From Actinosynnema sp. ALI-1.44 (GTDB lineage Bacteria; Actinomycetota; Actinomycetes; Mycobacteriales; Pseudonocardiaceae): 64,000 nucleotides of DNA. The notes below the pieces were generated by a model that was not told the DNA's origin, did no database searches, and was given only the letters and a program-made list of their open reading frames with translations. Position numbers and translations under genes: made by a program. The DNA lies in the NCBI RefSeq assembly GCF_001984155.1, contig NZ_MTQO01000052.1, forward strand, positions 682,001 to 746,000. The letters run 5' to 3'. Below, piece by piece: positions 46,301-62,233 of the stretch. Numbering within the stretch: the first letter of the stretch is position 1; each line of letters starts with the position of its first letter.

Positions 46301-47882
46301 GGCACGTACACCGCGCCTGCCTTGAGGGTCGCGAGCATCGCCACGACCTGCTCGATTCCGCGCGGCAGCACGACAGCAATCGCTTGCTCGGCCTCCACTC
46401 CGCGGCTGAGCAGGTAGTTCGCCAGGCGGTTGGCGCGGCTGACGAGTTCGTCGTAGGTCAGCTGGGTGCCCTCGAACATCACCGCTGGGTCGGCCGACGG
46501 CCGCACGAGCTCGCCGAACGTGGTGCCACGGACCTCCGTCGCGGTCTGGTTGCGGGTCTCGACCAGGTCGGTGTGCTCCTCGGCCGACACGACCGGAATC
46601 CGGCCGACCGGCCGGTCGGGGTCGGCGGCCATGGCCGTGAACAGCGCGACGACCCGGTCCGCCACGCGCCGCGCCAGCTCGGCGGGGACGATCTCGGTGC
46701 GGTGGCGGATGTCCAGGCGCAGGCGTTCGCCGGGGGTGGCCACCACGCCGAGCGGGTAGTGGCTGCCGTCGTTGCCGTCCACAGCGGACACCCGTAACCC
46801 GGCGCGTTCGCCGAGCCGGTCGAGTTCCTCGGTGTCGATCGGGTAGTTCTCCAGCACGGTGAACGTGTCGAACAGCTCACCGTCGACCCGGCCCGACTGG
46901 ATGTCGGCGAGACCGAGGTACTGGTGCGCGAGCAGCTGGGACTGACCCGCCTGGATCCGGCCGAGCAGCGACGCGACCGACTCCCCTGGCCGGACGGTGA
47001 CGCGCACCGGGGTGGTGTTGATCAGCAGGCCGATGATCTCCTCGGCCCTCGGCAGGCCGGTGGACCGGCCGGAGCCGGTGAGCCCGAACGTGACGTCCGC
47101 GCGGCCGGTCAGTTCGGTCAGGACCAACGCCCACACCGCCTGCAGGACGGTGTTCACGGTGACCTCGCAGCGCCGCGCAAGCGCTTGCACAGCCGTGGTC
47201 GTTGCCTCGTCGAGCCAGGTGGTGACCTCGCCCGGTTCGCTGCGGGCGTGCAGGTCGTGCCCGGCCGCGACCAGGGTCGGCTCGGTGACGCCGTCCAGGT
47301 AGCGGTTCCAGGCCGCGAGCGACCTCGCCTTGTCCTGTTTGGACACCCAGACGAGGTGGTCGCGGAACCGGGCGGGCGCGGGCATGCCGACGTCCGACCC
47401 CGCCGCCGCGTACAGCTCGAACAGCTCACGCACGAGCAGCGGCGCGGACCAGCCGTCGAGCAGGATGTGGTGGTGGGTGAACACCAGGGTGAACTCGTCG
47501 TCCGAACGCTTGACCAGCAGGAACCGCACCAGCGGCGGACGGCCCATGTCGAACGGCTTCGCCCGCTCGGCAGCCACCGCGGCCGCGACCTCGGCCGGGT
47601 CGCTCACCTCGATCTCGGCCCACGGCAGGTCGACCTCGGCCGGGATCAGCGCGACCGGCTCACCGGAGCGGCGCAGCCGGAACCCGGCGCGCAGGTTCGG
47701 ATACCGGCGCAGCAGCGCCTCGGCGGCGGCCTTGAGCGTCTTCGGGTCGACCGGGCCTTCCAGGTCCAGCGTCTTCTGCACGGTGTAGACATCACCGGCC
47801 GCGCCGCCGTAGGAGGCCCAGAACATCAAGCCCTGTTGCAGCGGCGACAGCGGCAGAACGTCCGACAGGCCGGGCGTGGCGC

Positions 47883-47886
<4 letters not shown>
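34381..47886 (-). CDS. NRPS, modules 4-7: C-A-T-C-A(beta-Ala)-T-C-A(Ser)-T-C-A-T-E
   Basis: A 4501-residue four-module synthetase. C domains have HHxxxD near residues 140, 1151, 2160 and 3151; A-domain P-loops near 599, 1618, 2604 and 3624; carrier serines near 973 (LGGHSLLV), 1980 (NGGHSLLA), 2969 (LGGHSLLA) and 4003 (LGGDSILS); an E domain from about 4030, with [10 protein letters not shown] near 4180 and EGHGRQQD. By-eye pocket codes: module 4 DTWTIASVDK (unassigned, aromatic-like), module 5 VDTTISLGDK (beta-alanine), module 6 DVWHFSLVDK (serine), module 7 DVAVIGAVNK (unassigned, becomes D). The middle C domains read HHIAGDE, HHIVADA and HHIATDE rather than DG. The C-terminal tail and next N-terminus look like a docking (COM) pair. 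ATG overlaps the preceding stop. Confidence 0.95.
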
Positions 47887-57654
<9,768 letters not shown>

Positions 57655-57662
<8 letters not shown>

Positions 57663-58074
57663 TGACGGCGCGGCCGGTGACGAGTGCCGGTTCCCCCGGG
57701 ACGGGGGCGGCCGGGTCCTTGCCCAGTTCGATGATCTGGTTCGACGCGTTGACGTGCACCACCTTCGGCAGGTGCGCGTCGAGCACGTCCTCGGCGACAG
57801 CCACGTACGTGATGATGATGACGAGATCCCCCGGGTGGACCAGGTGCGCCGCGGCACCGTTCACGCCGATGACGCCAGTGCCCGGTTCGCCGGTGATGGC
57901 GTAGGTCTCGAGCCGGTTGCCGTTGGTGATGTCGACGACCTGCACCCGCTCTCCCTCACGGATGTCGGCCGCCTTCATCAGCTCCTCGTCGATCGTCAGC
58001 GACCCGACGTAATGCAGGTCCGCCTGGGTGACGGTCGCCCGATGGATCTTGCCGTTGAGCACCGTGCGCAGCAC
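57655..58074 (-). CDS. panD: Aspartate 1-decarboxylase (PanD), beta-alanine supply
   Basis: Pyruvoyl enzyme that makes beta-alanine from L-aspartate. The 139-residue proenzyme starts [16 protein letters not shown] after the initiator. GTG at 58074 is chosen because it puts the self-cleavage site YVG-SLTI at exactly Gly24-Ser25, as in known PanD, and follows a GGAGGAGAGG ribosome site; GTG at 58089 would add five residues. Also present are the conserved Tyr-rich [20 protein letters not shown] and [11 protein letters not shown]. Normally PanD serves pantothenate synthesis. Here it has tandem iron boxes and is translationally coupled to an NRPS gene, so it most likely feeds the beta-alanine modules 5 and 8. 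Confidence 0.96.
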
Positions 58075-58091
58075 AGACCTCTCCTCCACAC

Positions 58092-58110
58092 TTAGGTAAG
58101 CCTAAATGAC
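58092..58110 (-). promoter_or_regulatory. Iron box, panD-proximal
   Basis: TTAGGTAAGCCTAAATGAC: the left arm and core match the IdeR/DmdR consensus, and TTAGG...CCTAA (58092-58105) forms a short perfect palindrome. It ends 18 bases from the panD GTG, so bound repressor would block the promoter or early transcription. Confidence 0.75.
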
Positions 58111-58111
58111 C

Positions 58112-58130
58112 TTAGGTAAGGCTAACCAGC
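58112..58130 (-). promoter_or_regulatory. Iron box, panD-distal
   Basis: TTAGGTAAGGCTAACCAGC matches the consensus at 15 of 19 positions. With the site at 58092 it forms a 20-bp-spaced tandem, the spacing of two helical turns, so two repressor dimers could bind the same face. It controls the panD-NRPS-oxidase operon. Confidence 0.85.
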
Positions 58131-58236
58131 GCCGACACTCAGGGACAAGTCGCCAGCCGGGACGTGCCGGGAGAGAATCCGTGGCCTACCGCACCCTGGC
58201 CAGTTCGCCACCAGGTGTATTAGGGTGCGCCACCCG

Positions 58237-59106
58237 TCAGCCCGCGTCCCCGGCCTCGTCGACCAGCCCGCGGATCGCGGCGGCGACCACCTCGGGCTCC
58301 GTGACCGGCACGTAGTGCCCGGACTTCTCGGCGAAGACGTGCCGCCCGCGCGGGCTTCCGGCGACCCGGGCGGCGTGCGAGGCGTTGGCCGCGGCGCGCA
58401 GGCGTGCGTTCATCCCACCTCCGGCGAGTTTTCCGGAAATCACCGTTATCGGTATGTCGCCCAGGTCCGGGGTGTTCTCCCGGAAAGCGGCGAGCTCGTC
58501 GAGAAACGTACGGGCCTGCTGGGCGTGGGTCCGCACGATTCCGGTCGTGAACCCCTCACGCCGGATGTCGCGGGCCGCGTCCGCGGGCAACGCCTTGGCC
58601 ATGCCGCGGTAGACGACACCGAGCATCCCGGCGCGCGCCAACGCCAGGTTGAGCTTGATGGCGACCCGCTCGAGCTTGCGGAAACCCGGGCTGAACAACA
58701 CATCGGCCGCCTCGTCGGTCGGGTCGACCAGGACGAGCCCGGCGATCCGCGCCGGCCGGTCCGCGGCCGCGAGGCGGACGATCGGTCCGCCCGCGCTGTG
58801 GCCTACGAGCACGAACGGACCGGGTCCGAAGTGGTCGAGCAGACACCCGAGATCGTCGGCCATCCGCCGCATCGTGCGCGACCGCGGGTCGGGCGCGCTG
58901 CGGCCCAGACCCGACCTGTCGTAGACGATCGCCCGCGCCCACTCGCCGACGAGCGGCTGGACCAACGCCCACGACGAGCGCGACGCGGCGGCCCCGGCCT
59001 CGAAGACGACGGTCGGGCCGGTTCCCGGTCCCGGCAGCACCTGGGCGTACAGCTCACGTCCGTCCCCGGTGGGTACGGCGACCGGTTCACCTTGGATGTG
59101 CGCCAT
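58237..59106 (-). CDS. Alpha/beta hydrolase
   Basis: A 289-residue alpha/beta-hydrolase-fold protein with nucleophile elbow GHSAGG, acid-region DPTDEA and late catalytic His in EKSGHYVPVTEP. No signal peptide. ATG at 59106 has a GGGGGAAG ribosome site; the frame is open further upstream but without protein-like sequence. It lies 107 bases upstream of the panD iron boxes on the same strand, and is itself without an iron box. Role unknown; possible general esterase. Because the NRPS line has no thioesterase, this is the only nearby serine-hydrolase candidate for release or for ester cleavage of the ferric product, but there is no direct evidence. Confidence 0.85.
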   Translation of the reverse strand: MAHIQGEPVAVPTGDGRELYAQVLPGPGTGPTVVFEAGAAASRSSWALVQPLVGEWARAIVYDRSGLGRSAPDPRSRTMRRMADDLGCLLDHFGPGPFVLVGHSAGGPIVRLAAADRPARIAGLVLVDPTDEAADVLFSPGFRKLERVAIKLNLALARAGMLGVVYRGMAKALPADAARDIRREGFTTGIVRTHAQQARTFLDELAAFRENTPDLGDIPITVISGKLAGGGMNARLRAAANASHAARVAGSPRGRHVFAEKSGHYVPVTEPEVVAAAIRGLVDEAGDAG

Positions 59107-59733
59107 GCTTCCCCCTGTGCCGATTAGGCGGATCTGATGGCGACAGTTGTACCCCGGCATCAGCCCACAGGCACCGGGGCCTTTTCCGCACCATTCCCGG
59201 AACAACGGGGACAAGAAAGTCACTAGACCGAACGGGTGACACCATCTACCCCCGGGATTTGCGCTCGACCGGCGAGTGACGGACCCTCCCACGGTCCGGG
59301 GTATCGCAATGCGGAAGCGCCTCATACCAGGGTTCGTAACCCGGGAAACCGGTACCCCGTGGCACACCGACAATCGGGGGAATCAGAGCGGGATCGGCGC
59401 CGAACGGCTTGACGGGGAACCCGCCCTGGGGAAGACTCCGGCGCGTTCCGTTACTGGTGTAGCGTGCGACAATGTCGCCGTTCACCCACTGGGGAAACAC
59501 TGTCGCCGGGCAGGCAGGACAGTGCTTCGGGTGAAGGCGGTACTGGGATAGAGCGATGTCGTTCGGCGTACTTGGGGGTACCCGGTGACTTCAACGCAGG
59601 GGCTCTTGAGGAGGACCGTCACGAGCGCAAGGTTGCCGCGGTTGTCGCACGAGGACTGACTACCCACCACGCGATCGGACCACCACTGTCATTCGAACTC
59701 CTGGGGGAGCTCGAGAGAACATGAGCGTGTAAG
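59107..59733. other. Long intergenic stretch without a secure gene
   Basis: About 620 bases between the hydrolase start and the IS701-like gene. No tRNA, clear repeat or iron box was seen. On the + strand a protein-like stretch around 59570-59724 (AGALEEDRHERKVAAVVARG, then TTHHAIGPPLSFELLGELER) is in the same frame as the transposase-like gene and separated from it by a single TGA at 59722. This may be a decayed upstream gene or former N-terminal part. It should also hold the hydrolase promoter. Confidence 0.5.
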
Positions 59734-60837
59734 ATGACCAAGACAAAAGAGATCACGGAGACCCCGATCGGGCAGCTGCCCGTTTCGACGTCCCTCGAGT
59801 TATGCCTACGGACGGTGCATTCCCGACTGTCACCGTGTTTCGCCAGAGCCGAGCCGCGGATGCGCGCGCTGAACTACATGTTCGGGCTGGCGAACATCGT
59901 CAAGAAGCCGTCTGTCGGGCGGCGCAACATAGCCACCTACGAATCGGAATACCGCGCCGACGGCGCACAACGCCTGCTCACCACCGCGCGATGGGACGAC
60001 GGGGAAGTCCGCCGCAAACTGCGTGAGATGGCCAGGGCGGCCGCGGCGGCGGGCGGCGACTTCTACGTCACCGAGGCGACCTTCGCCAAGAAGGGCAACC
60101 GCGCCGTGGCGGTGGACCTGCAGTTCTCCACGGAGAACGGCCGGGCGCAGAACTGCCAGAACGCGGTCGCCCTGCTGTACGTCGGTCCGGACAGGAAGGT
60201 CTTCCTGCTGGACATCGACCTGTACCTGCCGCCGACGTGGTCGGAGAGCGAGCGCCTGCGCAAGCAGGGCAACATCCCGCCGGAGGTCAGGCACCGGTCC
60301 AAGTCGGCCATCGCGTCGGACATGATCCAGCGCGCGATCGCCGACCAGTTCCGGCCGAGGCGGATCTACCTGTCGCTCAACTGCCCGAACAAGCTGCGGT
60401 TGCTGATGCTGTTGCAGCAACAGCAGATCCCGCACCTGACGTGGCTGTCGTCGGCCGAACTCGGCCAGCTCGACGAGTCGGTCGAGCCGCGCCACCCGGG
60501 GGGTACGAGAACGGATCTCGTGCCACGGCAGATGCCCCGGCAACGACCGTCACCGATGACGGTCGCACTGACGCCGAGTCCGTCGTTGGCCACTGCCGGG
60601 AAACGCGGCAGCACCAGCTACTTCCGGGCGTGCATGCACCATCCCCTGTCCCCCAACGGAATGGGGCACGCCATGGCGGAGATGCACCACCTCGACCGGC
60701 GTTGGCGCGCGATCCGCACCCGATCCCAACTGGACCGCTACGAAGTACGCGGCTGGGTCGGCTGGCACAGGCACATGACGCTGGCGATGGCGGTCCAGTT
60801 CGCGAGCGAACTGACCGAGGAACCCGTGCCGGTCTAG
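59734..60837 (+). CDS. IS701-family transposase relative lacking catalytic aspartates
   Basis: A 367-residue intact frame. Its order of blocks follows IS701-type DDE transposases: FARAEPRMRALNYMFGLANI, GAQRLLTTARWDDGEVRRKL, KKGNRAVAVDLQFS, GRAQNCQNAVALLYV, LDIDLYLPPTWSESERLR and near the end YEVRGWVGWHRHMTLAMAVQ. The first catalytic Asp (DETG in active enzymes) is replaced by TEAT, and the second (GDEVYG region) is NCPNK. So it should not transpose. No terminal inverted repeats or target duplication were noticed beside it. Either a recently dead element that kept its frame or a domesticated DNA-binding protein. ATG at 59734 has a weak ribosome site. Confidence 0.75.
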   Translation: MTKTKEITETPIGQLPVSTSLELCLRTVHSRLSPCFARAEPRMRALNYMFGLANIVKKPSVGRRNIATYESEYRADGAQRLLTTARWDDGEVRRKLREMARAAAAAGGDFYVTEATFAKKGNRAVAVDLQFSTENGRAQNCQNAVALLYVGPDRKVFLLDIDLYLPPTWSESERLRKQGNIPPEVRHRSKSAIASDMIQRAIADQFRPRRIYLSLNCPNKLRLLMLLQQQQIPHLTWLSSAELGQLDESVEPRHPGGTRTDLVPRQMPRQRPSPMTVALTPSPSLATAGKRGSTSYFRACMHHPLSPNGMGHAMAEMHHLDRRWRAIRTRSQLDRYEVRGWVGWHRHMTLAMAVQFASELTEEPVPV

Positions 60838-60893
60838 AAGAACACCGCGCTCCGGGTGGATGACGCGGTCCTGGTGCGAATTCCCAACGGGGA

Positions 60894-61820
60894 TCAGACG
60901 GTCAGGACGACCTTGCCCTGGAGGTGGCCGTCGTCCAGCAGCCGGTGCGCGTCGGCGACGCGCTCGAACGGGAACGTCTCCTGCACGTGGATCCGGAGTT
61001 TGCCCTGGTCGACGAGTTCGACGAGTCGTCGCAGGGCGACCGGGTCGGGGTCGACCGCGATGCCGCTGAAGCGCGATCCGGCTGCCTCGGCCTTGGCGGC
61101 GAGCGCCGCGTCCTCCTCGGCGACCGCCGTCACCAGGTGGCCCCCTGGGCGGAGCACGTCGAGCGAGCGTTCGACGGTGTCGCCGCCGAGGGTGTCGAGC
61201 ACGACGTCAATGTCGCTGACCACCTCGGTGAAGTTGACCGCGGTGTAGTCGATCACCTCGTCGGCGCCGAGCGCCTCGACGAACTCCCGTTTGCGTCCGC
61301 TGGCGGTCGTGATCACGTGCGCGCCGAGTGCTTTCGCGATCTGGATCGCGACGTGGCCAACCCCGCCACCGCCGCCGTGGACCAGGACGCGGTCGCCGTC
61401 GGTCACGCCGCCGAGGTCCACGAGACCCTGCCAGGCTGTCAGTCCCACAACCGGCAACGCCGAAGCCTCGACGTGGGAGAGCGACGCGGGCTTGCGCGCC
61501 AGGTGCAACGCCGGCGCCGCCACGAACTCGGCGTACGCGTTGGCCGCCCGGGGGAACAGCGGCATTCCGAACACCTCGTCACCGGGCCGCAACCGCCACG
61601 TCTGCGCCTGTTCGACCACGCCGCTGATGTCCCAGCCGAGGACGAACGGCGGCTGGCCGAGCAGCGGGAACTCACCCGCGCGCAGGCGTGCCTCCAGGGG
61701 GTTCAGCCCGATCGCCTTGACACGGACGAGGACTTCGGTCGGCAGCGGCCGGGGTTCGGGTGCGTCCACAATGGTGAGTGCTTCGGGGCCGCCGACCGTC
61801 TGCTGGGTGATGACTCGCAT
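60894..61820 (-). CDS. Zinc-independent NADP(H) oxidoreductase (quinone-reductase-like MDR)
   Basis: A 308-residue medium-chain dehydrogenase/reductase. Nucleotide-binding motif GGGGGVGHVAIQIAKALGA followed by TTASGRKREFVEALGADEVIDY. It lacks the catalytic and structural zinc cysteines, as quinone oxidoreductases do. Substrate unknown. Divergent from an HxlR regulator across 50 bases, the usual arrangement in which HxlR controls a redox gene. Confidence 0.9.
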   Translation of the reverse strand: MRVITQQTVGGPEALTIVDAPEPRPLPTEVLVRVKAIGLNPLEARLRAGEFPLLGQPPFVLGWDISGVVEQAQTWRLRPGDEVFGMPLFPRAANAYAEFVAAPALHLARKPASLSHVEASALPVVGLTAWQGLVDLGGVTDGDRVLVHGGGGGVGHVAIQIAKALGAHVITTASGRKREFVEALGADEVIDYTAVNFTEVVSDIDVVLDTLGGDTVERSLDVLRPGGHLVTAVAEEDAALAAKAEAAGSRFSGIAVDPDPVALRRLVELVDQGKLRIHVQETFPFERVADAHRLLDDGHLQGKVVLTV

Positions 61821-61870: not shown

Positions 61871-62233
61871 ATGAGCGAGTACGGTCCCGGCGGTCTGTTC
61901 CTCGCGGACTGCCCGGCGCGGATGGTGGTCGACCTGATCGCCGACAAGTGGACAGTGGTCGTGCTGGCCGGACTCAGCGAAGGCCCGGTGCGCCACGGCG
62001 CGCTGATCGAGATGATCGGCGGCGGCATCTCCCGCAAGGTGCTCACGCAGACGCTCCGGCGCCTCGAAGCACACGGCCTCGTCCGCCGAAACGCCTACGC
62101 CGAGGCGCCACCCCGAGTCGAGTACGAACTCACCCCGCTCGGGGCGACCCTGATCGATCCGATCCACACGCTGACCGAGTGGGCGAGGACGCACGGCGAA
62201 GAAGTCCTCGACGCGCTCGACTCAGCTTCGTGA
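61871..62233 (+). CDS. HxlR-family transcriptional regulator
   Basis: A 120-residue winged-helix regulator with the family core CPARMVVDLIADKWTVVVL, ISRKVLTQTLRRLEAHGLV and YELTPLGATL. Cys14 is the conserved N-terminal cysteine that senses aldehydes or oxidants in some members (HxlR, HypR, QorR). Divergent from the oxidoreductase and probably its regulator, as QorR is for a quinone oxidoreductase. Confidence 0.92.
   Translation: MSEYGPGGLFLADCPARMVVDLIADKWTVVVLAGLSEGPVRHGALIEMIGGGISRKVLTQTLRRLEAHGLVRRNAYAEAPPRVEYELTPLGATLIDPIHTLTEWARTHGEEVLDALDSAS

Follow-up and report, generated by a model that had tools for sequence, protein, structure and literature searches.

The gene at 59734..60837 on the forward strand of the window (64,000 nucleotides, G000:C49:682001-746000, from a genome of 11.7 Mb) encodes a protein of 367 amino acids and raises the question of whether a transposase without its catalytic residues is the debris of a mobile element or a gene that is kept by its host. 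The catalytic residues of IS701-type transposases are D, D and E. Homology to this family spans the whole length of the window protein. DDE_5 (PF13546, E = 2e-24) is the only Pfam family above cut-off, and the NCBIfam profile transpos_IS701 (NF033540) matches residues 26–355 with 148 bits, just below its cut-off of 150; all ten other dead IS701-like proteins that were scanned lie above it, and a Kineosporia member of the clade described below scores 207 bits. The frame is intact from ATG to stop over 367 codons, as the earlier note had said.

With these matches, a dN/dS of 0.13 against an orthologue in a related species (G002), and membership of a clade with 100/100 support, the gene is very probably a domesticated transposase. 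An IS701-type transposase would have lost all three of its catalytic residues and then been kept by purifying selection as a host gene.

Catalytic columns and predicted fold

An alignment with ordinary IS701 proteins places T113 (60070..60072), S214 (60373..60375) and D321 (60694..60696), all encoded on the forward strand, in the columns of the catalytic D, D and E. The earlier note had reported the loss of two aspartates, one by a change of DETG to TEAT and one at a stretch reading NCPNK. The first assignment was correct, with T113 in the Asp column. The second Asp is also lost; however, its exact column is S214, two residues before NCPNK, and a count of two was too low since the Glu column is altered as well. 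The change from E to D is mild in the window protein, where R322 takes the place of the second residue of the usual EE pair, and the same column holds G, R or A in other clade members. The triad is altered in all 13 clade members that were read, six of which are near-alike Kineosporia proteins: T, S or A in the first column, S or N in the second, and D, G, R or A in the third. The 22 ordinary proteins used for comparison were picked for carrying the triad, and their 22/22 DDE defines the group and tests nothing. Catalysis has presumably been lost in the clade.

The 13 members share 35 invariant positions that are kept from ordinary elements, including much of the C-terminal block YEVRGWVGWHRH (residues 336–347, 60739..60774, forward strand) that the earlier note had seen. 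Six of its residues (Y336, V338, R339, W344, R346 and H347) belong to this set. Another 18 positions are invariant in the clade but unlike ordinary elements, for example A75, A126, C217, K220 and E337. C217 and K220, within C217-P-N-K220 (60382..60393, forward strand), are positioned at the former second-Asp site and are found in 13/13 members, in columns that are mostly Y and variable, respectively, in ordinary elements. In the N-terminal part, ordinary proteins have a KNGW stretch whose K, N and W are at least 90% conserved; these three residues have been lost, and thus DNA specificity may have changed or gone.

AlphaFold2 produced a model of the window protein with a mean pLDDT of 81.1 and a pTM of 0.82, with low confidence at residues 1–15, 249–270 and 280–291. 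The best match among solved structures was Tn5 transposase (Foldseek E = 3e-6). VIA-align superimposed residues 19–367 of the model on residues 7–373 of the 1mus chain, N-terminal end included (Z = 19.2, 292 residues, RMSD 4.4, 11% identity), and the Tn5 inhibitor structure 1b7e was matched with a Z of 13.6. The N-terminal end of Tn5 transposase contacts transposon DNA. In the model, the part that aligns with this end (codons 19–103, 59788..60042, forward strand) is helical, with helices at 20–35, 39–52, 76–83 and 89–103. From the model, the whole Tn5-like fold is predicted to be kept, N-terminal end and C-terminal block included.

Distribution, selection and genomic context

Among named genomes, relatives were obtained by a scan with an alignment (A1), which relies on a pair of short patterns and may overlook some members; a scan with the single window protein gave no relative. 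Since the A1 score fails to split dead from live proteins (a live one had E = 4e-67), hits were classified by their catalytic columns. Counting the hits that were returned as loci, read and classified, clade members occur in at least seven of 390 host-family genomes: the host's own, G002, G172 (labelled Amycolatopsis), G219 (Amycolatopsis xylanica), G119 (labelled Saccharothrix), G127 (Saccharothrix sp. NRRL B-16314) and G130 (Saccharothrix sp. S26). Three Kineosporia species came in addition from the A1 scan of named genomes. In samples drawn evenly from the class (394 genomes) and from the phylum (396 genomes), no carrier besides the host genome was recognised, and the weaker hits that were read there were triad-bearing proteins, truncated ones or members of other dead lineages. 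The gene thus has few carriers, and their distribution is patchy. Outside the clade, L060 has DDQ with a frame seemingly shifted near its end and L170 is cut short. Two matches at 31% from a search of the Kineosporia order (G925) were discarded as ordinary DDE proteins.

In a tree of 46 proteins, nine clade members lie on one side of a branch with 100/100 support and no live member joins them; for a wider set of 17 dead proteins the support is weaker (83/97). The tree suggests that the triad was lost before the last common ancestor of the clade. L048 and L011, which are also dead, each stand alone among live proteins on supported branches, and the triad has therefore been lost more than once. 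A further dead protein, L008, is of uncertain placement, on a very long branch.

Within the genus, the gene is present in two of eight genomes (the host's own and seven others), the second being G002. The G002 orthologue is 92% identical at the amino acid level, has the same catalytic replacements, including the TEAT and NCPNK changes, and shares its neighboring genes with the window on the left but not on the right. The two genomes are collinear over 47630-59153 of the window at 88% (blastn), a block which contains NRPS genes identified by eye, panD (TIGR00223) and an alpha/beta-hydrolase gene (Abhydrolase_1) on the reverse strand at 47883..59106 and serves as context only. The gene with its short flanks (59677-60879) is 90% identical to G002. 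Between these collinear blocks G002 has extra DNA, and downstream of the gene the two genomes differ.

The comparison with G002 points to purifying selection, with a dN/dS of 0.13 by NG86 and 0.03 by YN00. The 111 substitutions are distributed 22/15/74 over codon positions 1/2/3 and amount to 29 observed amino acid changes, 15 of them in residues 1–15 or 248–292 that are mostly unstructured in the model. When 111 random changes were simulated neutrally (2000 runs), the frame stayed open in 2.1% of the runs and at least 62 residues were altered in every run. For the flanking panD and hydrolase genes, the same comparison gave a dN/dS of 0.08 and 0.16, respectively. The proteins of a Saccharothrix pair (L046/L047) have a dN/dS of 0.25, and the TetR neighbor of that pair 0.50.

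In G002, a gene for a 937-residue LAL-LuxR regulator (AAA domain and LuxR HTH) lies on the same strand and ends 67 bp before the dead transposase gene. The window has a stretch at 59364..59589 (forward strand) that is 84% identical to the sequence preceding this LuxR gene, and a collinear trace of the C-terminal HTH at 59623..59679 (forward strand; 12 of 19 residues identical, E = 0.002 in 600 bases). Since only this 19-residue trace is left, the LuxR gene appears to have been deleted. The domesticated gene is still whole in the strain where the LuxR gene has been reduced to a trace. With this loss, the conserved upstream stretch has come to lie immediately before the transposase-derived gene. 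Branch lengths in the tree suggest a faster evolution of the window copy after the LuxR loss; polarised changes gave no sign of it (5 versus 4, with 20 unresolved).

The window also contains a catechol-type siderophore cluster at 9786-57857. Profile matches in it include a DHB-AMP ligase, an isochorismate synthase, a DHB dehydrogenase, an isochorismatase and panD, and its large NRPS genes were identified by eye. A small regulator of the HxlR family is encoded at 61871-62233, downstream of the dead transposase gene and two genes away from it, in a segment that is not common with G002.

In Kineosporia, the gene is present in 6/6 genomes and in none of seven from other genera of the same family. 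It lies between mfd and a glutathione-transferase-like (GST-like) gene in all six, with both flanks in common. The proteins are 93.3–99.2% identical and have a dN/dS of 0.027–0.083 over 15 pairs; for purC of two Kineosporia the value is 0.15. The fixed position makes the question of function testable through deletion of a single gene. Separately, a strongly conserved intergenic block, CATAAAATGATCCGGAT, was seen within otherwise variable sequence in 6/6 Kineosporia genomes, some 80–115 bases before the gene at 8983 in L078 and in the same place in the five others. It could be a promoter or an operator, and nothing in these comparisons ties it to the dead transposase protein.

The host genome has one full copy. 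Its other matches are IS701-like proteins at 31–35% identity, ordinary copies among them, and a relic at G000:C17:31294-31525, a frameshifted paralogue of 225 bp with 76% DNA identity that matches the C-terminal part (69% over 48 residues). A copy without selection thus decays in this genome. Dead-type copies number one per genome wherever examined, and scattered or multiple copies are not the pattern: there is one full copy with its relic here, and a single locus in Kineosporia. The repeat search found no inverted-repeat pair framing the gene. With a second script, a weak pair appeared whose arms, at about 59605-59633 and 60910-60938, agree in 20/29 bases. Its score was 11, none of 30 shuffles exceeding 10, and the script did no better on three ordinary elements. 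The right arm of this pair is inside a neighboring oxidoreductase gene and outside the segment in common with G002.

Candidate roles and rival explanations

The LuxR gene of G002 is one of several regulators found beside the clade gene. In G219, a TetR gene lies 129 bp upstream on the same strand and a MerR gene lies downstream. TetR genes are also upstream in G127 and G119 (804 and 166 bp, respectively), and in G130 an acyltransferase gene is 18 bp upstream with TetR immediately before it. The four TetR proteins are the best in-genome matches to the G119 query (54–84%; the next best across 13 genomes was 39%). An orthologous TetR gene is thus found in four of the five Amycolatopsis and Saccharothrix carriers; the fifth, G172, has a sigma-70-type gene 494 bp upstream in its stead. 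Polyketide-cyclase, KAS III, MMPL or UbiA genes occur near the gene in G002, G219 and G130, with the first three of these types in G219. A regulator was nearby in three of four clade contexts, in two of seven other dead lineages (L048 and L011) and in one of nine ordinary loci. The seven lineages were neighbor-tested at least in part, with L049 and L126 left out and one neighbor each of L117 and L050 outside the test, and genes were called by a simple script. These numbers are too small to settle whether regulator adjacency is a general rule.

The dead transposase would most likely still bind specific DNA without cutting it, and may act as a transcription factor or co-regulator. Its partner in some genomes could be the adjoining regulator, LAL-LuxR in G002 and TetR in four Amycolatopsis and Saccharothrix genomes. 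DNA binding is suggested because a Tn5-like fold is retained and some of the neighboring genes encode regulators, and a role of the domesticated protein in DNA-binding regulation is, on the model and these neighbors, somewhat better than an even prospect. Several observations argue against it. Kineosporia has no regulator adjoining the gene among the neighbors tested (mfd, mazG, purC and GST-like), G172 has a sigma factor instead of TetR, and the window strain has lost the LuxR gene yet retains the transposase-derived gene. The missing KNGW residues and the small, scattered set of carriers count against it too.

The protein may instead have been reused for a role outside regulation, such as a new enzyme or a scaffold, in which C217 and K220 could form a new site. 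The invariance of these residues in 13/13 clade members, unlike ordinary proteins, would fit such a role, as would the biosynthetic genes nearby in G002, G219 and G130, including the acyltransferase gene of G130. However, Kineosporia keeps both residues at a locus with mfd, mazG, purC and a GST-like gene, and a fold of the DNA-binding type is whole in the prediction; this role is rather unlikely. A trans-acting inhibitor is a still less probable function. Such a protein would guard the host from live IS701 elements by blocking the element ends or by entering and spoiling the complexes that form there, which is how the Tn5 inhibitor acts. Although the predicted fold resembles both Tn5 transposase and its inhibitor, and ordinary IS701-like copies coexist in the host genome, these are only 31–35% identical to the protein, which lies far from live elements in the tree. 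It also keeps an N-terminal part, unlike the Tn5 inhibitor, and three Kineosporia genomes carry the gene with few other IS701-like matches, each at most 39% identical.

That the gene is an old element still being moved in trans by live relatives is very improbable and largely refuted already. The decayed paralogue elsewhere in the host genome, the patchy carriers and the weak end-repeat pair, from a script that was poor on ordinary controls, could be read in its favor, but one dead-type copy per genome where examined, an identical locus in 6/6 Kineosporia and strong purifying selection oppose it. The earlier note had set its suggestion of selection against a young dead insertion, found in this strain only and with near-identical active copies elsewhere. 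An orthologue exists in G002 and the non-relic matches in the host genome are only 31–35% identical. Nothing beyond the loss of catalytic residues favors such an insertion without function, whereas dN/dS values of 0.13 against G002 and 0.03–0.08 in Kineosporia, with replacements shared across the clade, leave it hardly any probability, and it was rejected. Selection on a domesticated transposase is instead borne out by that dN/dS, the clade-wide loss of the triad and the single locus in 6/6 Kineosporia. Domestication is further favored by the relic paralogue and the decay of the LuxR gene, where akin or nearby sequence without protection decayed.

Known systems and other dead IS701-like proteins

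The clade proteins resemble the IS701 family (NF033540, PF13546) in their full-length homology, Tn5-like fold and conserved C-terminal block. They differ from it in that all three catalytic columns are altered, one copy is found per genome where examined, the dead clade is separate without live members, and Kineosporia has a single locus. The Tn5 inhibitor is made by an active element as a truncated protein that lacks the N-terminal part. As a transposase-derived protein that does not transpose and has the same fold (1b7e, Z = 13.6), it is a near likeness; the clade protein, however, retains that part and has lost the catalytic residues. TldR proteins descend from TnpB. They are described as RNA-guided transcription factors (PMC13418256) and offer the likeness of a nuclease of transposon origin turned bacterial regulator, which is the role proposed for the clade protein. 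TldR is TnpB-like and RNA-guided, whereas the clade protein is of the DDE/Tn5 type, its nearest solved fold being Tn5 transposase. DDE transposases have also been recruited as host proteins in eukaryotes (for example, PMC4890758), from other transposase families. A literature search, mostly among papers outside subscription journals, found no catalytically dead IS701-like host gene. Domesticated transposases as such are already known.

Other IS701-like lineages have lost the triad independently, some of them inside polyketide or peptide clusters. L048 and L011 each adjoin a LAL-LuxR gene near polyketide-synthase genes (Pfam). A tentative and broader proposal, which is less probable than not to hold, is that IS701-type DDE transposases have become, on repeated occasions in actinobacteria, regulators of specialised metabolism that bind DNA and do not cut it. 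It is raised because LuxR or TetR genes adjoin the clade gene in several genomes, two independently dead proteins adjoin LAL-LuxR genes within 12 kb of polyketide-synthase genes, and another dead lineage sits within a daptide peptide cluster. If true, the TldR repressors would have a counterpart of the DDE type. As regulators, these proteins would offer access to siderophore, polyketide and RiPP clusters, and they would show clearly for bacteria that a DDE transposase can be reused once its chemistry is lost. Annotation as 'IS701 family transposase' may hide a host gene family as mobile debris.

Several other dead proteins were seen along the way. A search by term in the main texts of two daptide papers gave no hit for 'transposase'. 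L148:5536-6849 and L149:5484-6716 (coordinates on the strand of the gene) encode dead IS701-like proteins with D-G-R instead of D-D-E. The L148 locus has daptide RiPP methyltransferase, aminotransferase, dehydrogenase and metalloprotease genes (NCBIfam); L149 resembles it by eye and has a YcaO gene upstream. L075 (G115) and L154 (G026) are independently inactivated IS701-like proteins that each adjoin a LAL-LuxR gene, with a ketosynthase gene within about 9 kb in L075 and a PKS module and an NRPS-type gene within the same distance in L154. The host genome itself has a second dead IS701-like gene, L155:5608-6825 (G000:C39), its C39 match being the dead lineage L008. The orthologues in G001 and G002 (L156 and L166) are 90–95% identical with a dN/dS of 0.12–0.15, and the host copy is flanked by a type I PKS gene (upstream, at about 2.4 kb) and by metK (downstream, at about 1.5 kb).
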